DNA from: Psychrobacter cibarius
GTDB taxonomy: Bacteria > Pseudomonadota > Gammaproteobacteria > Pseudomonadales > Moraxellaceae
Direction of reading: 5' to 3'
Assembly (NCBI RefSeq): GCF_016107535.1
Contig: NZ_JABASQ010000001.1
Location: 248,001-312,000 of the forward strand
DNA: 64,000 nt
Shown here piece by piece: positions 28,556-40,255 of the stretch (its first letter is position 1; every line of letters begins with the position of its first letter). Under the pieces are notes generated by a model. The model saw only the letters and a list, made by a program, of their open reading frames with translations. It was not told the origin of the DNA and ran no database searches. A program made the position numbers and the translations under genes.

Positions 28556-29902
28556 TTAGTTTAAAATACCGTAAGCAACTAATGCATCGGCAACTCGTTT
28601 AAAGCCAACGATATTTGCACCAGCCATATAGTTGATATAGCCATTATCCGTTTGACCATACTGTTCTGAGGCATCAGCTGCGCAGTCATGGATATTTCTC
28701 ATGATATTTTTGAGGCGCAAGTCGATTTGCTCAAAGCTCTTATACTGACGGACTGAGTTTTGTGACATCTCAAGCGCAGAGACTGCTACACCGCCCGCGT
28801 TGGCGGCTTTACCTGGGGCATAATGCACCCGGTGCAAACGAATATAGTCGATGGCTTCAGCAGTCAATGGCATGTTGGCACCTTCGACAACGTATGTGAT
28901 GCCATTTTCCACCATGAGCTTGGCATCTTCTTCATTGACTTCGTTTTGCGTCGCAGATGGAATCGCGATATCGCCTTTGAATTGCCACGGCTTTTGCTTC
29001 GCAAACCACTCTCCACCATAAACATCGACGTACTCAGCCAACGGTTTGCTTTTTGCTTTTTGCGCCTTGAGCCAATCAATTTTTTCTTGATTCAGACCCG
29101 CTTCATCATACAAAGTCCCTTGTGAGTCTGACACAGTGACGACGATGCCACCCAGCATATGGGCTTTTTCAGCAGCATGTAATGAGACGTTACCAGCACC
29201 TGAAACCAATACTCTTTTACCTTTGATATCGTCATTTTGCGCCGTAAGCATGTTTTCTAAGAAATACACCGCGCCATAACCTGTCGCCTCAGTACGCATC
29301 AAACTACCACCGAAGCCAACGCCTTTACCGGTCAAAACGCCGCCGTATTCGTGCGTTAAATTCTTATACATAGCAAACATATAGCTGACTTCACGCCCAC
29401 CCACGCCAATGTCACCAGCGGGTACATCGATGTCTTTATTCACATAGTGATGTAGTTCACGCATAAAGGCATAGCAAAAACGGCGGATTTCACTGTCTGT
29501 TTTGCCTTTGGGATCAAAATCAGAGCCACCTTTACCGCCGCCCATTGGCAATCCAGTCAAAGCGTTTTTGAATATTTGCTCAAAGCCTAAAAACTTCAAA
29601 ACAGATTGGTTGACAGTCGGATGAAATCTCACGCCACCTTTATAAGGACCTAACGCATTGCTGAACTGGACACGCCAGCCGCGGTTAACCTGAACTTCAC
29701 CTTGGTCATTTTCCCAGTTAATACGAAAAGCAATAACGCGGTCAGGCTCAACGAGGCGCTCAAATATCTTAAAAGTATCATATTCTGGGTGGGCGTCGTA
29801 TAACGGCGCAATCGTAATTGCAACTTCTTTTACCGCTTGAACGAATTCAGGTTGATGGGCGTAACGCGCTTCGACTTTTTCGATGGCCTGACTGATACTC
29901 AT
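28556..29902 (-). CDS. gdhA: NADP-specific glutamate dehydrogenase
   Basis: Interconverts glutamate with 2-oxoglutarate and ammonia. The 448-residue protein has the length and motifs of the hexameric bacterial NADP form: KGGVRFHPTVNQSVLKFLGF, the catalytic Lys in GLPMGGGKGGSDFDPKG, PAGDIGVGGREVSYMF and a nucleotide-binding VSGAGNVSLHAAEKA. It lies near hutUHGI, whose product is glutamate, so it may help assimilate or spill nitrogen from histidine; that link is inference. Confidence 0.95.
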   Translation of the reverse strand: MSISQAIEKVEARYAHQPEFVQAVKEVAITIAPLYDAHPEYDTFKIFERLVEPDRVIAFRINWENDQGEVQVNRGWRVQFSNALGPYKGGVRFHPTVNQSVLKFLGFEQIFKNALTGLPMGGGKGGSDFDPKGKTDSEIRRFCYAFMRELHHYVNKDIDVPAGDIGVGGREVSYMFAMYKNLTHEYGGVLTGKGVGFGGSLMRTEATGYGAVYFLENMLTAQNDDIKGKRVLVSGAGNVSLHAAEKAHMLGGIVVTVSDSQGTLYDEAGLNQEKIDWLKAQKAKSKPLAEYVDVYGGEWFAKQKPWQFKGDIAIPSATQNEVNEEDAKLMVENGITYVVEGANMPLTAEAIDYIRLHRVHYAPGKAANAGGVAVSALEMSQNSVRQYKSFEQIDLRLKNIMRNIHDCAADASEQYGQTDNGYINYMAGANIVGFKRVADALVAYGILN

Positions 29903-30538
29903 ATCTTTTCCTTAGGGTAAAAATGGTGATCGTGCTTACTTACACCGATGTCACATCGTATGACAACAAACGAGAGGATTGTAGACACTGGTGTAAAACT
30001 GAAATTGCCCCGACACGCTGGCTTGTGTAGAGACAAATGGGATTAAAAAAGCTGACTGAATTTATGCCTAGATGCCACATTCAGAGACAAGAACATTTTT
30101 TATCCCATAATATATATCATTTTTGAGGCGTATAAGTCTAGTAAATATCACCATCATGAAAAGTTATAAGCGATTTTTATTGGCACAGTCTAGAGTGCGC
30201 CTTTGCATAGCACCTTGAGACACCGACTGATGAGCTTACAGATCTCATTGATTGTGCTAAAAATAGTCCTGTATTACTAAAAAATTTTCGTTTTTCTAAT
30301 CGGTCAATAAATCAAATATTAATGGAAATTTGTGTATTGATAACCGTTAAGTAAAGACGAAGGGTCAATAATCAACACCAAACGGTATAAAAAACCCAAA
30401 AACTTGGCTTTTTGCTCGAGCTGATGTATATCAATATTAACAGCAAGGGTTTATAATAGCCGACTTAGTCAACATTTATTCTCCACCATTACTAACTGTT
30501 ATTTGATTAATTGAATAACCCGTCATAGAGAAAGCGAT
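29903..30538. other. 636-base intergenic region between gdhA and the roadblock gene
   Basis: A/T-rich and without a credible gene. A weak stem (AAAAACCCAA at 30390-30399 with TTGGCTTTTT at 30404-30413, one C-C mismatch) is the only structure I noticed. The region should hold the promoters of both divergent genes. Confidence 0.4.
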
Positions 30539-30901
30539 ATGCGTACAGATTCATTCCAGCAAATCTTGGAAGACCTAAACAGCTCATCAGCCGATGTTGA
30601 AGCATCTGCCCTTATTTCTAACGATGGTCTGATGATTGCCTCAGCACTACCAACGGGCGTTGATGAAGACCGTGTTGGCGCTATGTCAGCGGCTTTATTG
30701 TCATTGGGTGACCGCGCAGGTCGTGAGTTGGCACGTGGTAGTATCGATCGTATTATGATTCAAGGTGAAAAAGGCTACGTGATTATGACCTCATCTGGAG
30801 ATGAAGCGGTACTTACCATTATGGCAAAACCGAATGCAAAACTTGGTTTGATATTCTTAGATATCAAGCGTGCCTCAGAAGCCCTTGCAAAACTTATCTA
30901 A
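30539..30901 (+). CDS. Roadblock/LC7 domain protein
   Basis: A 120-residue single-domain protein of the roadblock/LC7 (MglB-like) fold. The pattern ASALISNDGLMIASALPTGVDEDRVGAMSAALLSLGDRAG followed by IDRIMIQGEKGYVIMTSSGDEAVLTIMAKPNAKLGLIFLDIKRA is typical. Family members act as GTPase regulators (MglB) or scaffold subunits. No Ras-like GTPase or sensor kinase gene is nearby. It heads a set of five plus-strand genes (PAS, PhnD-like and two unknown) and probably works with them. Confidence 0.85.
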   Translation: MRTDSFQQILEDLNSSSADVEASALISNDGLMIASALPTGVDEDRVGAMSAALLSLGDRAGRELARGSIDRIMIQGEKGYVIMTSSGDEAVLTIMAKPNAKLGLIFLDIKRASEALAKLI

Positions 30902-31173
30902 TTGGTAAATTTGGATTTTTGTCGATAACACATTTTTTATTATTTAACGTCATATAGCACATAGCGCGACTGATAAATATGACTTTAAATCAAAATGAAG
31001 TGACTGTCTCATAAAAAATATTTAAGATGGCACACATTATTTGTATGGAATAATAGCCTGATAAATATTGGGACGACGACTGAGCTGAAAGGCAACCTGA
31101 TGTTATCGACAACTACCACACCAGATTGGCTTTTTAATCATTATAAATATAACGATAAATAAAGGAGATTACG

Positions 31174-31668
31174 ATGGGTTCTCCAATCCCTGATGCACAT
31201 AAGCCTGATATGCCCGCTGAGCAGATTACTCTGACTTATTATGATGGTACATCACGGACTGTCTATGATACTGGTATTGAACGCCCTTATCCTGATGGCA
31301 AGCTGATTGTATCTCGCACCGATTTGGATGGTGTGCTGACTCACGTCAACGATGCTTTTGTCGAAATCAGTGGCTACAGCGTTGATGAGCTTATTGGTCA
31401 GCCACAATCTATTTTGCGCCATCCTGATATGCCAAAAGCCGCTTATAAAGATTTGTGGGATACCGCAGCGGCTGGGCAAAAATGGCATGGCTACGTTAAG
31501 AATTTATGCAAAGATGGTAGTCACTATTGGGTCTATGCGACCGTTGTGCCGAACATTCGTCGCGGCGAAACAGTGGGTTATACCTCGGTACGCCGTAAGC
31601 CATCACGTAGCAAAATCGAAGCTGCTATGGCTCAGTATGCCCAAATGAATCAAAATGAGGAAGGCTAA
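31174..31668 (+). CDS. Stand-alone Aer-type PAS domain protein
   Basis: A 164-residue soluble protein made of one PAS domain (about residues 45-145). It matches the N-terminal FAD-binding PAS of the Aer aerotaxis receptor: THVNDAFVEISGYSVDELIGQP, LRHPDMPKAAYKDLWDTAAAG, KNLCKDGSHYWVYATVVP. The Arg82, His83, Asp85 and Trp104 positions correspond to residues linked to FAD binding in Aer. Unlike Aer there is no membrane segment, HAMP or methyl-accepting domain. I infer a redox or oxygen sensor that signals through a partner. It ends 3 bases before the PhnD-like gene; AAAGGAG precedes its ATG. Confidence 0.85.
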   Translation: MGSPIPDAHKPDMPAEQITLTYYDGTSRTVYDTGIERPYPDGKLIVSRTDLDGVLTHVNDAFVEISGYSVDELIGQPQSILRHPDMPKAAYKDLWDTAAAGQKWHGYVKNLCKDGSHYWVYATVVPNIRRGETVGYTSVRRKPSRSKIEAAMAQYAQMNQNEEG

Positions 31669-31671
31669 ATC

Positions 31672-32421
31672 ATGACGACACACAATATGTTAATCGCCCC
31701 TGATTTTTCTCCTGAGCGTTTTGCAGGCTGGCACATGTTTAATATTTTGATTCAAAAACGTGCCAACCTAAATATGCATCTAAACATACCTACCTCACAT
31801 GCTGAACAAGAGCAAATCATTGAGGCAGGTGACATTCAAGTTATCTATGCCAACCCATTTGATGCAGCTACTTTGATCCGTGAACAAGGCTATCGCGCTG
31901 TTGCACGCCCTATCGGCAAATCGGATGAGATGGTCATTGCTGCTGCGGCAAACAGTGATATCAAGCGCTTAGAAGACATTAAAGCGGGTGCGACCGTAGC
32001 AATGGCAGACAACCGTGATGTTAAGCTGATTGGCTTACGCTTGCTAGAAGCTGTGGATATAGAAGAGTCTGATCTTAACTGGGATATCACTGAGACTTAT
32101 CAGGCAGCCGCCCGTAAAGTCATCAAAGGTGATGCTCAAGCGGCTTTCTTCTTGGCAGAGATTTTTCATAGCTTTTCACGCTTGACCAAAACTCAGCTGT
32201 CAGTGCTAATCGAAAGTGATTTGGCAGATATTAGCCATGTATTATTGATTAAAGATGGCTTTCCTGATACAGAAATATTCATGAATGCGATCCTGAACTT
32301 GCATAATGATGACGATGGTAGAGAAGCATTGGCTGAACTTGGCATGCCTCAAGGGTTTGAAGCCATGGACGAAGAAGATGCTGAATTTATGATAGATTTG
32401 ATGCAAACTTTACTTGATTAA
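31672..32421 (+). CDS. PhnD-like binding protein without signal peptide
   Basis: A 249-residue protein with the type 2 periplasmic-binding fold of the PhnD/phosphonate family: an early MLIAPDFSPERFAGWHMF, QVIYANPFDAATLIREQGYRAVARPIG, and a second lobe with AMADNRDVKLIGLRLLEA and VIKGDAQAAFFLAEI. It starts directly with the domain and shows no signal peptide or lipobox, so it is probably cytoplasmic and not part of an ABC importer. No permease or ATPase gene is near. It starts 3 bases after the PAS gene, so both are likely translated together. I infer a ligand-sensing role. Confidence 0.75.
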   Translation: MTTHNMLIAPDFSPERFAGWHMFNILIQKRANLNMHLNIPTSHAEQEQIIEAGDIQVIYANPFDAATLIREQGYRAVARPIGKSDEMVIAAAANSDIKRLEDIKAGATVAMADNRDVKLIGLRLLEAVDIEESDLNWDITETYQAAARKVIKGDAQAAFFLAEIFHSFSRLTKTQLSVLIESDLADISHVLLIKDGFPDTEIFMNAILNLHNDDDGREALAELGMPQGFEAMDEEDAEFMIDLMQTLLD

Positions 32422-32571
32422 TTATTACTTATTAATTGGCACGTTGCACCGTTTCGCTTAGTGAAGTCATAGGCTATTGTCGCTCAATAGTGGCTATATC
32501 ATTTTGACCATACGATATTAGCCATAAGCTGTTAGCCATACAATAGACACTATGACTTAAAGGACACTATT

Positions 32572-33189
32572 ATGTCTGATTTAGACCTTATTAAAGAAAA
32601 TGAGATGGAAGCGCGCCGAGTATTTCGTTTATATTCGCGTAAAGTGTTTTTGGCACCCAATAACCGTCATTTTCATGAACAACGTATCAATGCCGCATTA
32701 CTTTTAACCGAAAAAGAGCCGCTGCAAGGTGCCGTCGCAGACTTTTTTTATGGCTGCTGGTATGACATTCCTTACGATGTAAATAACCTGTTTACGCGTA
32801 TTAAAGATCGCTTGTACCCTCATGTCCAGCAAGGGTTTCGCGATTGTATTAGTAAGAAGCGATATATTCAACGCAATAGTATGCTGGCGACTCGCTGGAG
32901 TGTCCTGATATCGCCGTCTCTCAATGAGCAAAAACAGCGATTGCTTATCAGTAGCGATGACGCCAAAGAAATATCCAAAGACATCACCGCTGAGCTCATG
33001 CAAGCGCGTGAAGATAAAGATTGGGGCACGATTGAGCAGATCGAAAACGAATTCTTTGCTCACTGTATCGCTCGCAATGATCGACTTGCCTTCTCGTTAG
33101 TATGGTTTCGCTTGGGTAAAAGCGACTGGCAATTCGATGAGCGCTGGAACAACTGTCAACAGCATCTTGATCAGACCATCAAGACCTAA
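32572..33189 (+). CDS. Unrecognised protein in the roadblock/PAS cluster
   Basis: A 205-residue protein, probably soluble and mainly helical, with no motif I know. It opens acidic and Arg-rich (LIKENEMEARRVFRLYSRKVFLAPNN), has a central FYGCWYDIPYDVNNLFTRIKDRL segment and a Trp-rich end (LVWFRLGKSDWQFDERWNNCQQHL). No signal peptide or membrane helix. AAAGGA precedes the ATG. It stands 150 bases after the PhnD-like gene and 29 bases before the next gene on the same strand. Confidence 0.75.
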   Translation: MSDLDLIKENEMEARRVFRLYSRKVFLAPNNRHFHEQRINAALLLTEKEPLQGAVADFFYGCWYDIPYDVNNLFTRIKDRLYPHVQQGFRDCISKKRYIQRNSMLATRWSVLISPSLNEQKQRLLISSDDAKEISKDITAELMQAREDKDWGTIEQIENEFFAHCIARNDRLAFSLVWFRLGKSDWQFDERWNNCQQHLDQTIKT

Positions 33190-33218
33190 TTTATCGCCGA
33201 TTTAACCCTTTCATCACA

Positions 33219-33845
33219 ATGGTAGCCGCTATGTCCTCTTACTTAAATGCTGATAAAACGTATCTAACCCTCACTCCAGCCGGTATTTTTGAGGCATTTT
33301 CACAAAGTGAGCCCACTGATGAACAGCTGTCATTACAAGACTTAATGTCCTATGGGGAGACGTTGCTCGCCGCTGATTGGCTTGAGCGTTATTCTGACGA
33401 ATGGCTACAGAGCTTTATAGAACACGGCTGGATTGAAAAGCTGTCTTTGTTGTTACCCGCACCCAATCTGCCATTGGACCAGTTTTTACCGTATGTGGTT
33501 GCCAGCTTATCCGGTAAACGCCGTGCCGCTATTGGCTCTGATGAAGGGTTTTGCCTAGCACGAATCGGTTACAGCCAAGAAGAAGCGGACATGCTAAGTG
33601 TTGCAGCTGCTGACTTTTCAGGTTTTATGATTCGCCAAAAACAACGCGGCTGGGCGGTCGAAAGCCAAGCCATCTCGTTTTTTCAACAAGTTGACTTACT
33701 GATTCCTGAGACCAGCTTTGTGTTTTTATGGATTGATGGTTCAGGTTACGCCCTCATCATCGATGGCGAGCCTTTAACTAATAGCCGCGCCTTTGTTGAG
33801 ATGGTATGGGCATTGAAAACGTCTGGCTTAAGATTTCTTAGCTAA
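33219..33845 (+). CDS. Unrecognised protein, possible roadblock-like C-terminal domain
   Basis: A 208-residue soluble protein. The first 90 residues are Leu/Glu-rich and helical. The second half (SDEGFCLARIGYSQEEADML...VFLWIDGSGYALIIDGEPLTNSRA in outline) follows the strand-helix-strand pattern of roadblock/LC7 proteins, starting with a SDEGF turn like the SNDGL of the first gene in this cluster. I treat that as a hypothesis, not an assignment. ATG 33231 is an alternative start. It ends the five-gene set. Confidence 0.7.
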   Translation: MVAAMSSYLNADKTYLTLTPAGIFEAFSQSEPTDEQLSLQDLMSYGETLLAADWLERYSDEWLQSFIEHGWIEKLSLLLPAPNLPLDQFLPYVVASLSGKRRAAIGSDEGFCLARIGYSQEEADMLSVAAADFSGFMIRQKQRGWAVESQAISFFQQVDLLIPETSFVFLWIDGSGYALIIDGEPLTNSRAFVEMVWALKTSGLRFLS

Positions 33846-34053: not shown

Positions 34054-34086
34054 AAAAAAAAGACGCTATTTACAGCGTCTTTTTTG
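34054..34086. terminator. Bidirectional rho-independent terminator
   Basis: AAAAGACGCT and AGCGTCTTTT pair around ATTTAC, flanked by long A and T runs. It lies about 210 bases after the roadblock cluster and before the convergent HdeD-like gene. Confidence 0.85.
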
Positions 34087-34093
34087 TTTATTG

Positions 34094-34268
34094 CTAGGGC
34101 GTGTCCTCATTTCAAAAATGGTGATAAAAATGAGTTAAATTGCCGTCAAACGAGGAAAATAGCGCAGATAATATCGGGATATTAACCAGCTATTTAACGA
34201 TATTTGGCAAAATTTAGCCATTTTTAGCCCGTTTAGATATGATCAATTGAATTGAGGACACGCCCTAG
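34094..34268. mobile_element. MITE-like element with 18-19 bp terminal inverted repeats
   Basis: The left end GGGCGTGTCCTCATTTCAA (from 34098) and the right end read in reverse (GGGCGTGTCCTCAATTCAA, ending at 34264) match at 18 of 19 positions. Both are flanked by CTA/CTAG, a plausible target duplication. The 175-base element has no coding capacity. IS5-like elements use YTAR targets, so an IS5-type transposase in trans is a reasonable guess. Its right edge is 8 bases from the HdeD gene stop. The rest of the 33846-34276 gap is the terminator and A/T-rich sequence. Confidence 0.75.
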
Positions 34269-34276
34269 AACTACAT

Positions 34277-37807: not shown

Positions 37808-40255
37808 CTACTCTGGTAGTTCATAAAGTAATTTGTCGAGGGTAATAGGAAAGTCATAAACTCGTACACCCACGGCGTTGTAAACGGCATTAGCAATAGC
37901 AGCGGCAGCACCAGCAATCGCCGTTTCCCCAATACCTTTTATGTGCATTGGATTGGTATACGGATCGTCCTCTTCTACCAAGATAACATCAAGCTGAGGA
38001 ACATCCGCACTGACTGGGACATGGTATTCTGCAAGATTATGATTACATAGCCGACCGTCATGCTTATCGTGAATCACCTGCTCCATCAACGCAGAACCAA
38101 TACCAAATATCATACCGCCGTAGCACTGTGAGGTCGCGGTTTTGTAATTGAGGATACGCCCTGCTGCAAAGGCACCAGTCATACGTTTAACGCGTATTTC
38201 ACCAGTCACTCGATGTACAGCGACCTCGGCAAAATTGGCACCAAATGACGCTTGGCGATGACTTTTGGCATTTTTACCCGGTGCAATTTGACCTTTGGCA
38301 CTGACTTTTTGGTCATCATATTGAGCGACGATATCGGCTAATGAATGAGTCTGGAAATTACTAAAGTCATATTCTTTCGATTCAGTTAGTGAGATTCCCG
38401 TTACTTCACCTAATTTGTCTTTTAAATCAGCGACTTTATCTACGATATTATCGCCCAAACCTGCTACTTTTTCTTTTCCTGCTTCTATAACGGTTTCTAC
38501 AAAGTTAGCCTCATGCTCACCTACCTGCTTAATTTGACCGTTATCCAACTGAATGGTGTCAGGGTATAGACCGACTTTTTCTGCGATCATCTCACGTAGC
38601 TGCTGACAAGCAAGGTAAATACTACTGCCTGAACTGGCAGCGCCCATACTGCCCCCTGAACCAACCGCAGGTGGCAAACTGGTATCACCAAGCTTCATTT
38701 CAATATGATCTATTGGTAGTCCTAATAAATCTGCAGCAACCTGAGTAAATACGGTATAAGAACCTGTACCGATATCGGTCATGTCTGTCTCAATCACAGC
38801 TTTGACGCCTAGTGCTTTTGAGTTATCTATTTGCAGGGTCGCCCGTGCTTCTGATGGCGCTAAGCTGTTGCCGCGAGCTGCCGCTGCCATACCCATACCC
38901 ATCCACCAATCACCTTCTAAGCGACTGGCAGGCTTAGCATTGCGTTGATTCCAGCCAAACTGTTCAGCCGCTTGATCGATACAAGCGATGAGCTTACGCG
39001 TGGAAAACGGGACACCTTTACTAGGATCTTGCTCAGGCTCATTACGACGGCGCAGCTCGACAGGGTCTAGGTTGAGTTGCTCTGCCAATTCATCCATCGC
39101 ACACTCAAGGGCAATCTGCCCCACTGCTTCACCGGGGGCACGCATTGAGCCTGACAAAACTTGGTTCATATCTACTTGCTGATAGTTGACCCGGCGATTT
39201 TCACCGCGATACAAATAATGCGTAGAGAGTGCTGCTGGCTCAAAAAAGGCTTCTCCTGGCAAATTACTAGAGACCGTCTCATGAATCATGGTGTCAATAA
39301 TACCGTCTTTACTACAACCAATTGCGATGCGTTGACGCGTGTTTGAGCGTCTAATCGTTGCCTCCATTACTTGCGGACGTGTCATAGTGATTAACACGGG
39401 ACGACCCAAGTCCTTTGCTGCTAGTGCGGCGGCTATCGATTCTGGAGAAATCCCAAGCTTGCTACCAAAACCCCCACCGACATAACGAGCGATTAATTGC
39501 ACATTATCTGCATCCAAATCCAATGCATCAACGATTTGCTTTTTGCACGAAGAAAGCATTTGATTAGAGGAGTACATAATCAGCTTCTCACCTTTCCAGT
39601 GAGCAAGCGTTGCATGAGGCTCCATCGCTGCGCTGTTTTGACTTGGCGTATGATAAAAGCGGTCAAGGGTTACCGCAGCATCAGCAAGACTTTGTTCTGG
39701 ATTACCCTTTTCTGAATTTTTATCCGAACCTTTTTTTTCATTAACCTCATGAGCATTTGGCAGCTCTGTCGTAAAGTTTAATGCCGCCTGCTCAGTCTCA
39801 TCCTCATAAGTCACTTTGAGCGCTTTTGCACCTTCTGTCGCCGCCTCAAACGTCTCAGCGATGACGACCGCGATCGGCTGACCATGATAAAAAATCTCAC
39901 TGACGCCTTGCTTAGGTGATTTGGTTGCACCGCCCTGTTGTGCATTGCGCAAAAAATGCTCAGGATCAGTAACTACTTTAATAATGTTGGGAATACCCTC
40001 TAAAGAGCTGCTATCAATTTTCTTAACGCGCCCTTTGGCAATCGTTGCGCTCACCAAAACACCATAGGCTTGATTGTCTAAATGAATCTCTGCCGTATAA
40101 GGTGCTTGACCACTGACCTTGAGTGATCCCTCAACTCGGTTAATGGGCTTACCCACCAATTTGCTCGCTGTTTTATCAAAAAGCGACTCAACTGACCCAT
40201 TCATCATCATTTTTTTGGTCGGTTCTGCTGGCAATATTGAATCCAATAATGACAT
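37808..40255 (-). CDS. paoC: Molybdenum-binding subunit of PaoABC-type aldehyde oxidoreductase
   Basis: The catalytic subunit of a three-subunit xanthine-oxidase-family enzyme that oxidises aldehydes. It resembles E. coli PaoC (YagR). Visible are the VGKPINRVEGSLKVSGQAPYTAEI start, GGGFGSKLG, GSMRAPGEAVGQIALE (cofactor loop) and the active-site Glu in KGIGETAIAGAAAAIANAVY. At 815 residues it exceeds the about 730 of PaoC, with a charged insert at about 39690-39750 and an amphipathic helical insert at about 38380-38520. No Tat leader is seen on any subunit of this complex. Confidence 0.88.
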   Translation of the reverse strand: MSLLDSILPAEPTKKMMMNGSVESLFDKTASKLVGKPINRVEGSLKVSGQAPYTAEIHLDNQAYGVLVSATIAKGRVKKIDSSSLEGIPNIIKVVTDPEHFLRNAQQGGATKSPKQGVSEIFYHGQPIAVVIAETFEAATEGAKALKVTYEDETEQAALNFTTELPNAHEVNEKKGSDKNSEKGNPEQSLADAAVTLDRFYHTPSQNSAAMEPHATLAHWKGEKLIMYSSNQMLSSCKKQIVDALDLDADNVQLIARYVGGGFGSKLGISPESIAAALAAKDLGRPVLITMTRPQVMEATIRRSNTRQRIAIGCSKDGIIDTMIHETVSSNLPGEAFFEPAALSTHYLYRGENRRVNYQQVDMNQVLSGSMRAPGEAVGQIALECAMDELAEQLNLDPVELRRRNEPEQDPSKGVPFSTRKLIACIDQAAEQFGWNQRNAKPASRLEGDWWMGMGMAAAARGNSLAPSEARATLQIDNSKALGVKAVIETDMTDIGTGSYTVFTQVAADLLGLPIDHIEMKLGDTSLPPAVGSGGSMGAASSGSSIYLACQQLREMIAEKVGLYPDTIQLDNGQIKQVGEHEANFVETVIEAGKEKVAGLGDNIVDKVADLKDKLGEVTGISLTESKEYDFSNFQTHSLADIVAQYDDQKVSAKGQIAPGKNAKSHRQASFGANFAEVAVHRVTGEIRVKRMTGAFAAGRILNYKTATSQCYGGMIFGIGSALMEQVIHDKHDGRLCNHNLAEYHVPVSADVPQLDVILVEEDDPYTNPMHIKGIGETAIAGAAAAIANAVYNAVGVRVYDFPITLDKLLYELPE

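Follow-up and report, generated by a model that had tools for sequence, protein, structure and literature searches.

The window, meaning the whole stretch of 64,000 nucleotides that was analysed, contained five consecutive open reading frames on the plus strand between positions 30539 and 33845 (Table 1). Pfam matches identified a roadblock/LC7 gene (RB), an Aer-type PAS gene (PAS) and a PhnD-like gene (PHN), followed by two unknown genes (G4 and G5), which confirmed the composition and the single strand proposed in an earlier sequence-only reading. The set contained no kinase, GTPase or receptor gene, as that reading had also stated. The 636-base flanking gap that it had named was measured upstream of RB, and the gene on the far side (28556–29902, minus strand) is presumably glutamate dehydrogenase-like. 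A terminator-like stem was located 210 bases past the last stop codon, but the scan gave 5 such sites in comparison with a mean of 3.8 in shuffled sequences, so that by itself it is weak evidence. Because of the internal gaps of 272 bases (RB to PAS) and 150 bases (PHN to G4), a single transcript for the five genes is a candidate only. No 19-residue window exceeded 1.25 on the Kyte–Doolittle scale in any of the five proteins.

Table 1. Positions of the cluster genes and flanking features in the window
Feature	Position	Strand	Remarks
Upstream intergenic region, 636 bases	29903..30538	.	Divergent minus-strand gene on the far side
RB, roadblock/LC7 (MglB-like), 120 aa	30539..30901	+	Pfam PF03259 Robl_LC7, E 2.4e-18
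PAS, soluble Aer-type PAS protein, 164 aa	31174..31668	+	PAS_3, E 8.7e-16; no HAMP/MCP domain found
PHN, PhnD-like (Phosphonate-bd family), 249 aa	31672..32421	+	PF12974, E 2.9e-33; starts 3 bases after PAS
G4, predicted all-helical protein, 205 aa	32572..33189	+	AlphaFold2; hhalign to outgroup TPR-like proteins
G4–G5 junction, 29 bases	33190..33218	+	Site of G420 and the GTPase in seven-gene relatives
G5, small N-terminal domain and predicted C-terminal roadblock/LC7 domain (~residues 83–206), 208 aa	33219..33845	+	AlphaFold2, Foldseek, VIA-align
Terminator-like inverted repeat	34056..34085	+ (matches both strands)	210 bases past the last stop

Predicted identities of the five proteins

RB was matched to Robl_LC7 with 66.1 bits, against a Pfam cut-off of 23. 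Its orthologues were 84–100% identical in the family sample, and the identity was 58–63% for seven sequences aligned from modules of other Gammaproteobacteria. The best solved-structure match of the PAS profile was the aerotaxis receptor (PDB code 8dik, E 2.2e-42), and by its sequence the protein is assigned to the Aer type. Although the PAS sequence was like that of the Aer receptor (PDB codes 8dik and 31cj), the cluster protein consisted of a PAS domain only, without a membrane anchor, and neither a HAMP nor an MCP signalling domain was found with Pfam. PHN belonged to the same domain family as the phosphonate-binding proteins of ABC transporters. It differed from them in its N-terminus, which lacked the strongly hydrophobic stretch of a signal peptide in the hydropathy profile, as had been claimed, and in its neighbours, which were the other four cluster genes, with no ABC transporter gene recognised by eye. 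The score against the NCBIfam PhnD model was 14.8 (cut-off 261), and the PHN profile had no matches among solved structures. The Pfam and structure matches thus bore out a redox-type part (the Aer PAS) and a ligand-type part (the PhnD fold) in a conserved module of signalling type.

For G4 and G5, nothing was obtained above the Pfam cut-offs and the NCBIfam search led nowhere; a PHROGs search with RB, G4 and G5 also gave no matches. The AlphaFold2 model of G5 (pLDDT 79, pTM 0.76) had MglB, roadblock, MP1/p14-Ragulator or dynein light-chain-type chains in its best 44 Foldseek rows, with probabilities of 0.92–1.00 and a best E of 2e-3, none being below 1e-3. MP1/p14-Ragulator and dynein light-chain-type chains are roadblock folds. 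The best VIA-align match had a Z of 7.9 and 3.4 Å over 107 residues, where a Z below 8 can, by the tool's own warning, mean merely a common arrangement. Weak, sub-threshold Robl_LC7 matches were found in 10 of 27 G5 relatives, the G5 of the window being below the Pfam cut-off, and the G5 profile matched solved structures only at E 0.25 and 0.57, the second of which was a roadblock protein. At the level of the fold, G5 is predicted to carry a second roadblock domain.

G4 was left without a firm fold match. Its model was all-helical (pLDDT 82.5, pTM 0.55), and fold searches gave no match with E below 1 (Foldseek best E 1.3), with middling helical-repeat, 14-3-3 and TPR-like rows. The Moraxellaceae G4 was aligned to its outgroup counterpart by hhalign at 95.7% (E 1e-8), and the outgroup proteins in this position had weak TPR matches. 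G4 is thus a putative remote homologue of TPR-like proteins that other Gammaproteobacteria encode in the equivalent position of the cluster.

Conservation of the set and loss of the GTPase

Samples of 119 family, 369 class and 105 genus genomes were searched. G4 and G5 were present in exactly the same 36 of the 119 family genomes; 34 of these contained PHN and 35 an RB orthologue, which in one of the 35 was a broken copy. Among 76 named loci, 59 had the order RB-PAS-PHN-G4-G5 (two of them, L084 and L097, with shortened frames), 14 had RB-PAS-PHN-G4-G420-GTPase-G5, in which G420 is a protein of ~420 residues and the GTPase is of the MglA type, and 3 were partial. The order was kept in all 73 complete loci, as the neighbourhood comparison proposed with the sequence-only reading required of genes conserved together, and it points firmly to a real conserved unit. 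A chance assembly of unrelated neighbours, which the internal gaps might suggest, has a negligible probability and was ruled out by the co-occurrence of G4 and G5 and by an order that was conserved across Moraxellaceae and cyclically permuted in other Gammaproteobacteria. The set was dispensable, since 7 of the 26 genomes that represent the window's own genus in the family sample had none of it. Nor were the five genes inseparable, since two genomes retained only G4 and G5 intact (G023, and G033, in which RB was broken by a TGA codon).

The seven-gene relatives, mostly Moraxella, contained the GTPase and G420 within the same cluster. In other Gammaproteobacteria, 20 loci were chosen for having G5, from 20 of the 33 non-own class-level genomes with a G5 match. 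RB, G420 and G4 were each found in 19 of them and the GTPase in 18, on a single strand in the order G4-G420-GTPase-G5-RB(-PAS-PHN). PAS and PHN were both present in 9 and both absent in 11, and never occurred singly. The Moraxellaceae G420 was matched to the outgroup protein by hhalign at 97.3%. When 21 representative five-gene Psychrobacter loci were placed in a tree with 8 outgroup loci, they formed a single clade with a support of 0.92. Three Psychrobacter-titled records (L113, L117 and L120) kept seven genes and were grouped with Moraxella outside this clade, and the five-gene loci L128 and L033 were nested among seven-gene Moraxella. The tree indicates that the GTPase and G420 were lost in the main Psychrobacter clade and independently in a Moraxella sub-clade. 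In the window, no MglA-type GTPase was found in the cluster, and only the 29-base junction lies at the corresponding site. The earlier claim of a set without a GTPase thus holds for the main Psychrobacter clade but not for Moraxella, the three Psychrobacter-titled records or most of the other gammaproteobacterial loci, and the possibility that a GTPase was never part of the set was ruled out by its place inside these clusters.

The five retained genes were under strong purifying selection. For pairs of 57 five-gene loci (without L084 and L097), the median dN/dS was 0.010 for RB, 0.050 for PAS, 0.046 for PHN, 0.047 for G4 and 0.033 for G5. Pairs with dS outside 0.1–1.5 or saturated were dropped, and the pairs are non-independent; for G4, 857 of 1596 pairs were saturated and 350 were used. 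In the 15 seven-gene loci the values were higher, 0.061–0.190, from 6–41 usable pairs per gene (2–41 across all of the seven-gene figures). The low ratios of the five-gene loci, together with an RB protein of unchanged sequence in seven genomes of the genus, among them that of the window, speak against a pseudogene remnant. It is accordingly very improbable that the five genes are on their way out after the departure of the GTPase and G420, even though the entire set is missing from the seven genomes noted above and G023 and G033 are reduced to G4 and G5.

Probable kinship with Group 3 MglA systems

Group 3 MglA proteins of beta- and gamma-Proteobacteria are described in the main text of Wuichet and Sogaard-Andersen (2014, PMC4316618) as having a DAR sequence in the G5 motif, a non-canonical G4 motif, and one or two roadblock proteins. 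They are accompanied by an unknown protein with a receiver-like N-terminus, a variable linker and a winged-helix-like C-terminus (PMC4316618). In an alignment of 19 GTPase rows, 10 from the module and 9 from other loci, the motifs were GPVGAGKT, PGQ and DAR, with no [NT]KxD; one row from another locus, a BLUF locus (L040), had DPR instead of DAR. The G420 family had a variable middle, and its C-terminal part was aligned by hhalign at 95.2% with the protein encoded next to the GTPase at other Moraxellaceae loci; G420 may correspond to the unknown protein of that text. The seven-gene relatives fit the Group 3 systems (PMC4316618), the module GTPase being assigned to the group from its motifs and gene context. 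A GTPase search of solved structures gave no matches. In Group 3, an MglB-type roadblock protein is expected to be encoded within four genes of the GTPase. The distance between RB and the GTPase was one or two genes in all 18 outgroup loci that have the GTPase. In the seven-gene Moraxellaceae loci, RB was five genes before the GTPase, which was adjoined only by G5, the predicted roadblock protein.

The module differs from the described Group 3 systems by the addition of the PAS and PhnD pair and the TPR-like protein, and the terms PAS, PhnD, phosphonate and TPR have no occurrences in the main text of PMC4316618. The window set differs further in lacking the GTPase and G420. Orphan MglB with conservon genes in Actinobacteria, as that main text presents it (PMC4316618), is similar in that a roadblock protein was kept with its neighbours after mglA loss. 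However, it belongs to Group 2 with a histidine-kinase-like protein, whereas here the partners are a redox/ligand-type pair and the loss extends across most of a genus. The Snodgrassella mgl operon with orphan mglB-3 is of Group 3, but it retains mglA, and no PAS or PhnD partner is named in the accessible text (PMC11112851). No description of the roadblock-PAS-PhnD cluster as a unit was found by title or abstract start in a searched literature that leaves out most subscription journals, which is weak evidence. The sequence-only reading of an undescribed module therefore stands for the unit but not for the kind of system, described in 2014 (PMC4316618). The five genes probably derive, by loss of the GTPase and G420, from a seven-gene module of the Group 3 MglA type (G4, G420, GTPase, G5, RB, PAS and PHN). 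As to evolutionary identity, descent of the window set from this already known kind is highly probable. Concrete candidate sensors (the Aer-type PAS and the cytosolic PhnD-like protein) and a TPR-like protein are now attached to little-characterised bacterial Ras-like systems, so that the input of those systems becomes testable.

Proposed working without a dedicated GTPase

The usual role given to roadblock proteins is to regulate a GTPase partner. In the complete seven-gene module, redox or oxygen state would be sensed by the Aer-type PAS protein, and a small ligand in the cytosol by the PhnD-like protein. Both inputs would converge on the roadblock pair RB/G5; this pair would in turn control whether the GTPase is in one nucleotide state or the other, and G420 and the TPR-like G4 would relay the result. 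This detailed wiring is inferred and is put forward tentatively. In Psychrobacter, assembly of the two sensors with the roadblock platform has probably been retained, with signalling via G4 or another partner and no dedicated GTPase. Also tentative is the proposal that the PAS and PhnD-like sensors act through the RB/G5 platform on an effector, G4 or a partner, with no small GTPase, and that this may have arisen more than once in Gammaproteobacteria. If so, a G-protein system continues to signal after losing its G protein. The near-unchanged retention of the other genes poses the testable question of how a signalling set can operate once its switch GTPase is gone.

The module could instead be a sensory input to the type IV pilus chemosensory system (Pil-Chp) that replaces the lost periplasmic sensor of PilJ. 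Among the matches listed, an MCP gene was present in 36 of 36 module-bearing family genomes, and in Moraxella the module was present in 10 of 10 MCP-positive and 0 of 12 MCP-negative genomes (p 1.5e-6, ignoring relatedness). The sole MCP match of the own genome was a PilJ-type gene, and PilJ lacked the periplasmic region in this genome and others. All 20 of the intact five-gene genomes had a short best MCP frame (471–524 codons), but the frame was long (687–723 codons) in 12 of 14 seven-gene genomes, a contrast with p 1.7e-7, again ignoring relatedness. In Snodgrassella, a change in T4P-type motility is attributed by the authors to mutation of an orphan mglB of a Group 3 system (PMC11112851). 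However, the events within Moraxellaceae are few in independent number, and a short PilJ was also seen in genomes that lack the module (G043 and G111) and in genomes with all seven genes (G022 and G101). We take G101 to be an Acinetobacter. At class level, with PilJ called at an analyst-set threshold of E <= 1e-40, PilJ was found in 17 of 34 G5-positive and 164 of 335 other genomes, with no association (p 1.0). A general coupling to PilJ/Pil-Chp, strong in Moraxella, is thus gone at class level, and the input to Pil-Chp is quite unlikely.

A further alternative to GTPase-independent signalling, a functional module that borrows an MglA-type GTPase in trans, for example from the BLUF operon of its own genome, is unlikely. 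Roadblock proteins are known MglA partners (main text of PMC4316618), and the earlier proposal of a partner elsewhere is possible in these terms. Against it, neither a single GTPase query nor the 19-row profile matched an MglA-type GTPase in 9 of the 18 five-gene genomes of Psychrobacter that were checked. A strongly constrained roadblock module in a genus where half of these genomes show no such GTPase offers a natural test case for roadblock action that does not depend on a GTPase. The profile search of the 105 genus genomes found an MglA-type GTPase in 43 and none in 62. In the other nine of the 18 genomes, the window's included, another MglA-type GTPase was present. The sole match of the own genome was located ~165 kb from the cluster, in a BLUF-GTPase-roadblock-like operon at ~447 kb (L040). 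This GTPase could serve in trans, but when seven BLUF-locus GTPases were read by eye, each was adjoined by a roadblock-like gene of its own.

The five genes in the window and in Moraxellaceae

The roadblock/LC7 (RB), Aer-type PAS (PAS) and PhnD-like (PHN) genes and those of two unknown proteins (G4 and G5) were found as open reading frames on one strand where the sequence-only reading had placed them, flanked by the 636-base gap and terminator-like stem that it had described. Pfam agreed with its identities for the first three. The PAS protein matched the Aer type (best solved structure 8dik, E 2.2e-42), and hydropathy gave no strongly hydrophobic stretch at the N-terminus of PHN, as expected of the proposed lack of a signal peptide. 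Within the set are gaps of 272 and 150 bases, so the five genes may not share one transcript.

Open reading frames of the set, in window coordinates
Gene	Position	Strand	Assignment
RB	30539-30901	+	Pfam roadblock
PAS	31174-31668	+	Pfam PAS
PHN	31672-32421	+	Pfam Phosphonate-bd
G4	32572-33189	+	no Pfam match above cut-off
G5	33219-33845	+	no Pfam match above cut-off

Just downstream of the terminator, an inverted repeat (34089-34273) with 27-base arms, 89% complementary and separated by 131 bases, contained a 15-base perfect core, of which a second copy with two mismatches was located at 38149-38163. It looks like a small mobile-repeat element.

G4 and G5 were each found in 36 of 119 family genomes, the identical 36. 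PHN was found in 34 genomes, all among these, and an RB orthologue in 35 of the 36, including the G033 copy with an internal TGA; a search that included more distant roadblock paralogues reached 47 family genomes in total. PAS relatives were widespread (71 genomes), and the close orthologue was located in the cluster. The 36 genomes comprised 20 with intact five-gene sets (18 of Psychrobacter, G006 and G042), 14 with seven-gene sets, among them split or contig-cut genes (G025, G097, G100 and G112), and two with partial sets (G023 and G033). The whole set was absent from 7 of 26 Psychrobacter genomes in the family sample.

Loci read from other genera carried two extra genes between G4 and G5, encoding a fast-evolving protein of ~420 aa (G420; 22–54% identity among members) and a P-loop GTPase of ~180 aa. 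Among 76 named loci with a G5 homologue, 59 had the order RB-PAS-PHN-G4-G5 and 14 the order RB-PAS-PHN-G4-G420-GTPase-G5; L118 was a seven-gene set interrupted by a contig end, while G4 and G5 alone were present in L109 and, at the edge of a contig, in L078. With 73 of the 76 loci in five- or seven-gene order, the neighbourhood comparison supported conservation of the genes together. The observed five-gene set was confirmed as real and conserved; its reading as a signalling module without a GTPase was upheld in part, as its seven-gene relatives do carry a GTPase. By title, 58 of the 59 five-gene loci were Psychrobacter, and the seven-gene loci were 11 Moraxella and three Psychrobacter sp. (L113, L117 and L120). 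The sole locus titled otherwise, L128 (contig BMPS01000005.1, Streptomyces cinereus JCM 3040), contained a Moraxella-type five-gene cluster and in the tree was next to a Moraxella-group locus; the assembly is probably mislabelled or contaminated.

The GTPase of the seven-gene relatives and its loss

An alignment of 19 GTPases (10 from the module, 9 from other loci) contained GPVGAGKT-type, TTV and PGQ motifs, and DAR in 18 of 19 rows; the [NT]KxD motif was absent. The main text of Wuichet and Sogaard-Andersen 2014 (PMC4316618) describes Group 3 MglA systems in beta/gamma-Proteobacteria, with a deviant G4 motif and a DAR G5 motif in the GTPase, one or two MglB proteins, and an unknown protein whose N- and C-terminal regions are conserved and whose linker varies; the terms PAS, PhnD, phosphonate and TPR do not occur in it. 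The full seven-gene module fits this kind, its GTPase motifs agreeing with that description.

The G5 profile matched 34 of 369 gammaproteobacterial genomes (27 of 272 genera). Twenty loci, read from the 33 matching genomes other than our own and thus containing G5 by selection, had the one-strand order G4-G420-GTPase-G5-RB, a cyclic permutation of the Moraxellaceae order. G4, G420 and RB were each present in 19 and the GTPase in 18. PAS and PHN were never apart, following RB together in nine loci and both being missing from 11. Profile comparison of divergent Moraxellaceae and outgroup members (95.7% for G4, 97.3% for G420) supported their homology.

A FastTree tree of RB, PAS, PHN and G5 was rooted on eight gammaproteobacterial loci. 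In it, the five-gene Psychrobacter loci, of which 21 were used, formed one clade (support 0.92), and the three seven-gene loci titled Psychrobacter grouped with Moraxella (0.89). L128 and L033, both five-gene loci, nested with seven-gene Moraxella. Judged from this topology and the seven-gene state of the outgroup, the absence of the GTPase and G420 is a loss that occurred at least twice. The set in the window is most likely a module of the Group 3 MglA type, equipped with a putative pair of sensors, that lost its GTPase in the main Psychrobacter clade. The GTPase was not found in outgroup locus L143 (7200-11200), nor were the GTPase, G420 and RB in L158 (2016-3386; 4.7-kb contig). These non-Moraxellaceae loci suggest further independent losses of the GTPase, possibly more than two in all. 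Such loss has precedent, since orphan MglB genes remain after mglA loss in actinobacterial conservons, as described in the main text of PMC4316618.

A profile search of 105 Psychrobacter genomes found an MglA-type GTPase in 43 and not in 62. Nine of the 18 five-gene Psychrobacter genomes in the family sample, including the window's, had one elsewhere; single-query and profile searches found none in the other nine (G051, G074, G077, G091, G096, G099, G114, G116 and G118).

The retained proteins and their possible role

Median dN/dS values were 0.010 (RB), 0.050 (PAS), 0.046 (PHN), 0.047 (G4) and 0.033 (G5), a sign of tight constraint on all five genes; the GTPase-less set is therefore in all likelihood functional.

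Structure prediction, suggested earlier for the two unknown proteins, gave roadblock-type matches for G5. Its model (pLDDT 79, pTM 0.76) showed a helix-strand-strand-helix-strand-strand-helix arrangement in residues 86–201, and roadblock proteins, MglB among them, were its best solved matches (E 2e-3 and probability 1.00 in Foldseek). The VIA match had a Z of 7.9 (3.4 Å over 107 residues); according to the tool, a Z below 8 can reflect a common arrangement, and weight was therefore placed on the leading rows all being one fold. The C-terminal part of G5 is thus predicted to adopt the roadblock fold. Residues 1–82 formed a separate small domain, which the searches made here barely probed. The G4 model was all-helical (pLDDT 82.5, pTM 0.55), with no firm match among solved structures; its outgroup homologues gave weak TPR-like matches in the C-terminal half (TPR_19 at E ≤0.01 in 8 of 11).

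PAS would provide a redox input and PHN a ligand input. RB and G5 would form a roadblock platform, which in the ancestor would have regulated the GTPase, and G420 and G4 would be outputs. In Psychrobacter, G4 or another partner would be the target of the platform, with no dedicated GTPase involved.

An input from the module to the type IV pilus Pil-Chp system via PilJ is of low probability. The receptor at the loci read is PilJ, located in a PilG-PilH-PilI-PilJ-CheR-ChpA-type cluster. In counts that ignore relatedness, a chemoreceptor gene was present in all 36 module-bearing family genomes, the module occurred in 10/10 receptor-bearing and 0/12 receptor-less Moraxella genomes, and the MCP frame was short in 20/20 five-gene versus 2/14 seven-gene genomes; PilJ also lacked its periplasmic region in our own genome and several others. 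At class level, however, PilJ was found in 17/34 G5-bearing and 164/335 other genomes, and with no association there the pilus connection was kept only as a low-probability alternative.

The periplasmic region was missing from PilJ at L161:7219-8649 (own genome) and at L162, L165, L166, L167, L171, L172, L178 and L180. The short form, which occurred in Psychrobacter and in certain other members of the family, had 452–481 aa versus about 700 and kept the signalling part.

Other GTPase and roadblock loci

A separate Psychrobacter operon was located at ~446.6-448.3 kb of contig C11 of our own genome (L040:8601-10265, - strand) and in L185-L190. It encoded a roadblock-like protein (119 aa), a BLUF-type protein (PF04940, E 2.5e-20 for L040, the one copy compared with Pfam for this domain), an MglA-type GTPase and a second roadblock-like protein (141 aa in L040, with no Pfam match). 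The own copy was truncated by the contig end, and inspection by eye gave the same layout in the other six genomes. BLUF proteins are blue-light photoreceptors, and the adjoining BLUF protein and GTPase may constitute a light-controlled GTPase system; none of the papers listed by a literature search was on such an operon by its title. In a Moraxella genome (L045:3313-9600), another GTPase with a roadblock-like gene was located close to a protein that has Hpt and HATPase_c domains and, by eye, to a putative response regulator.
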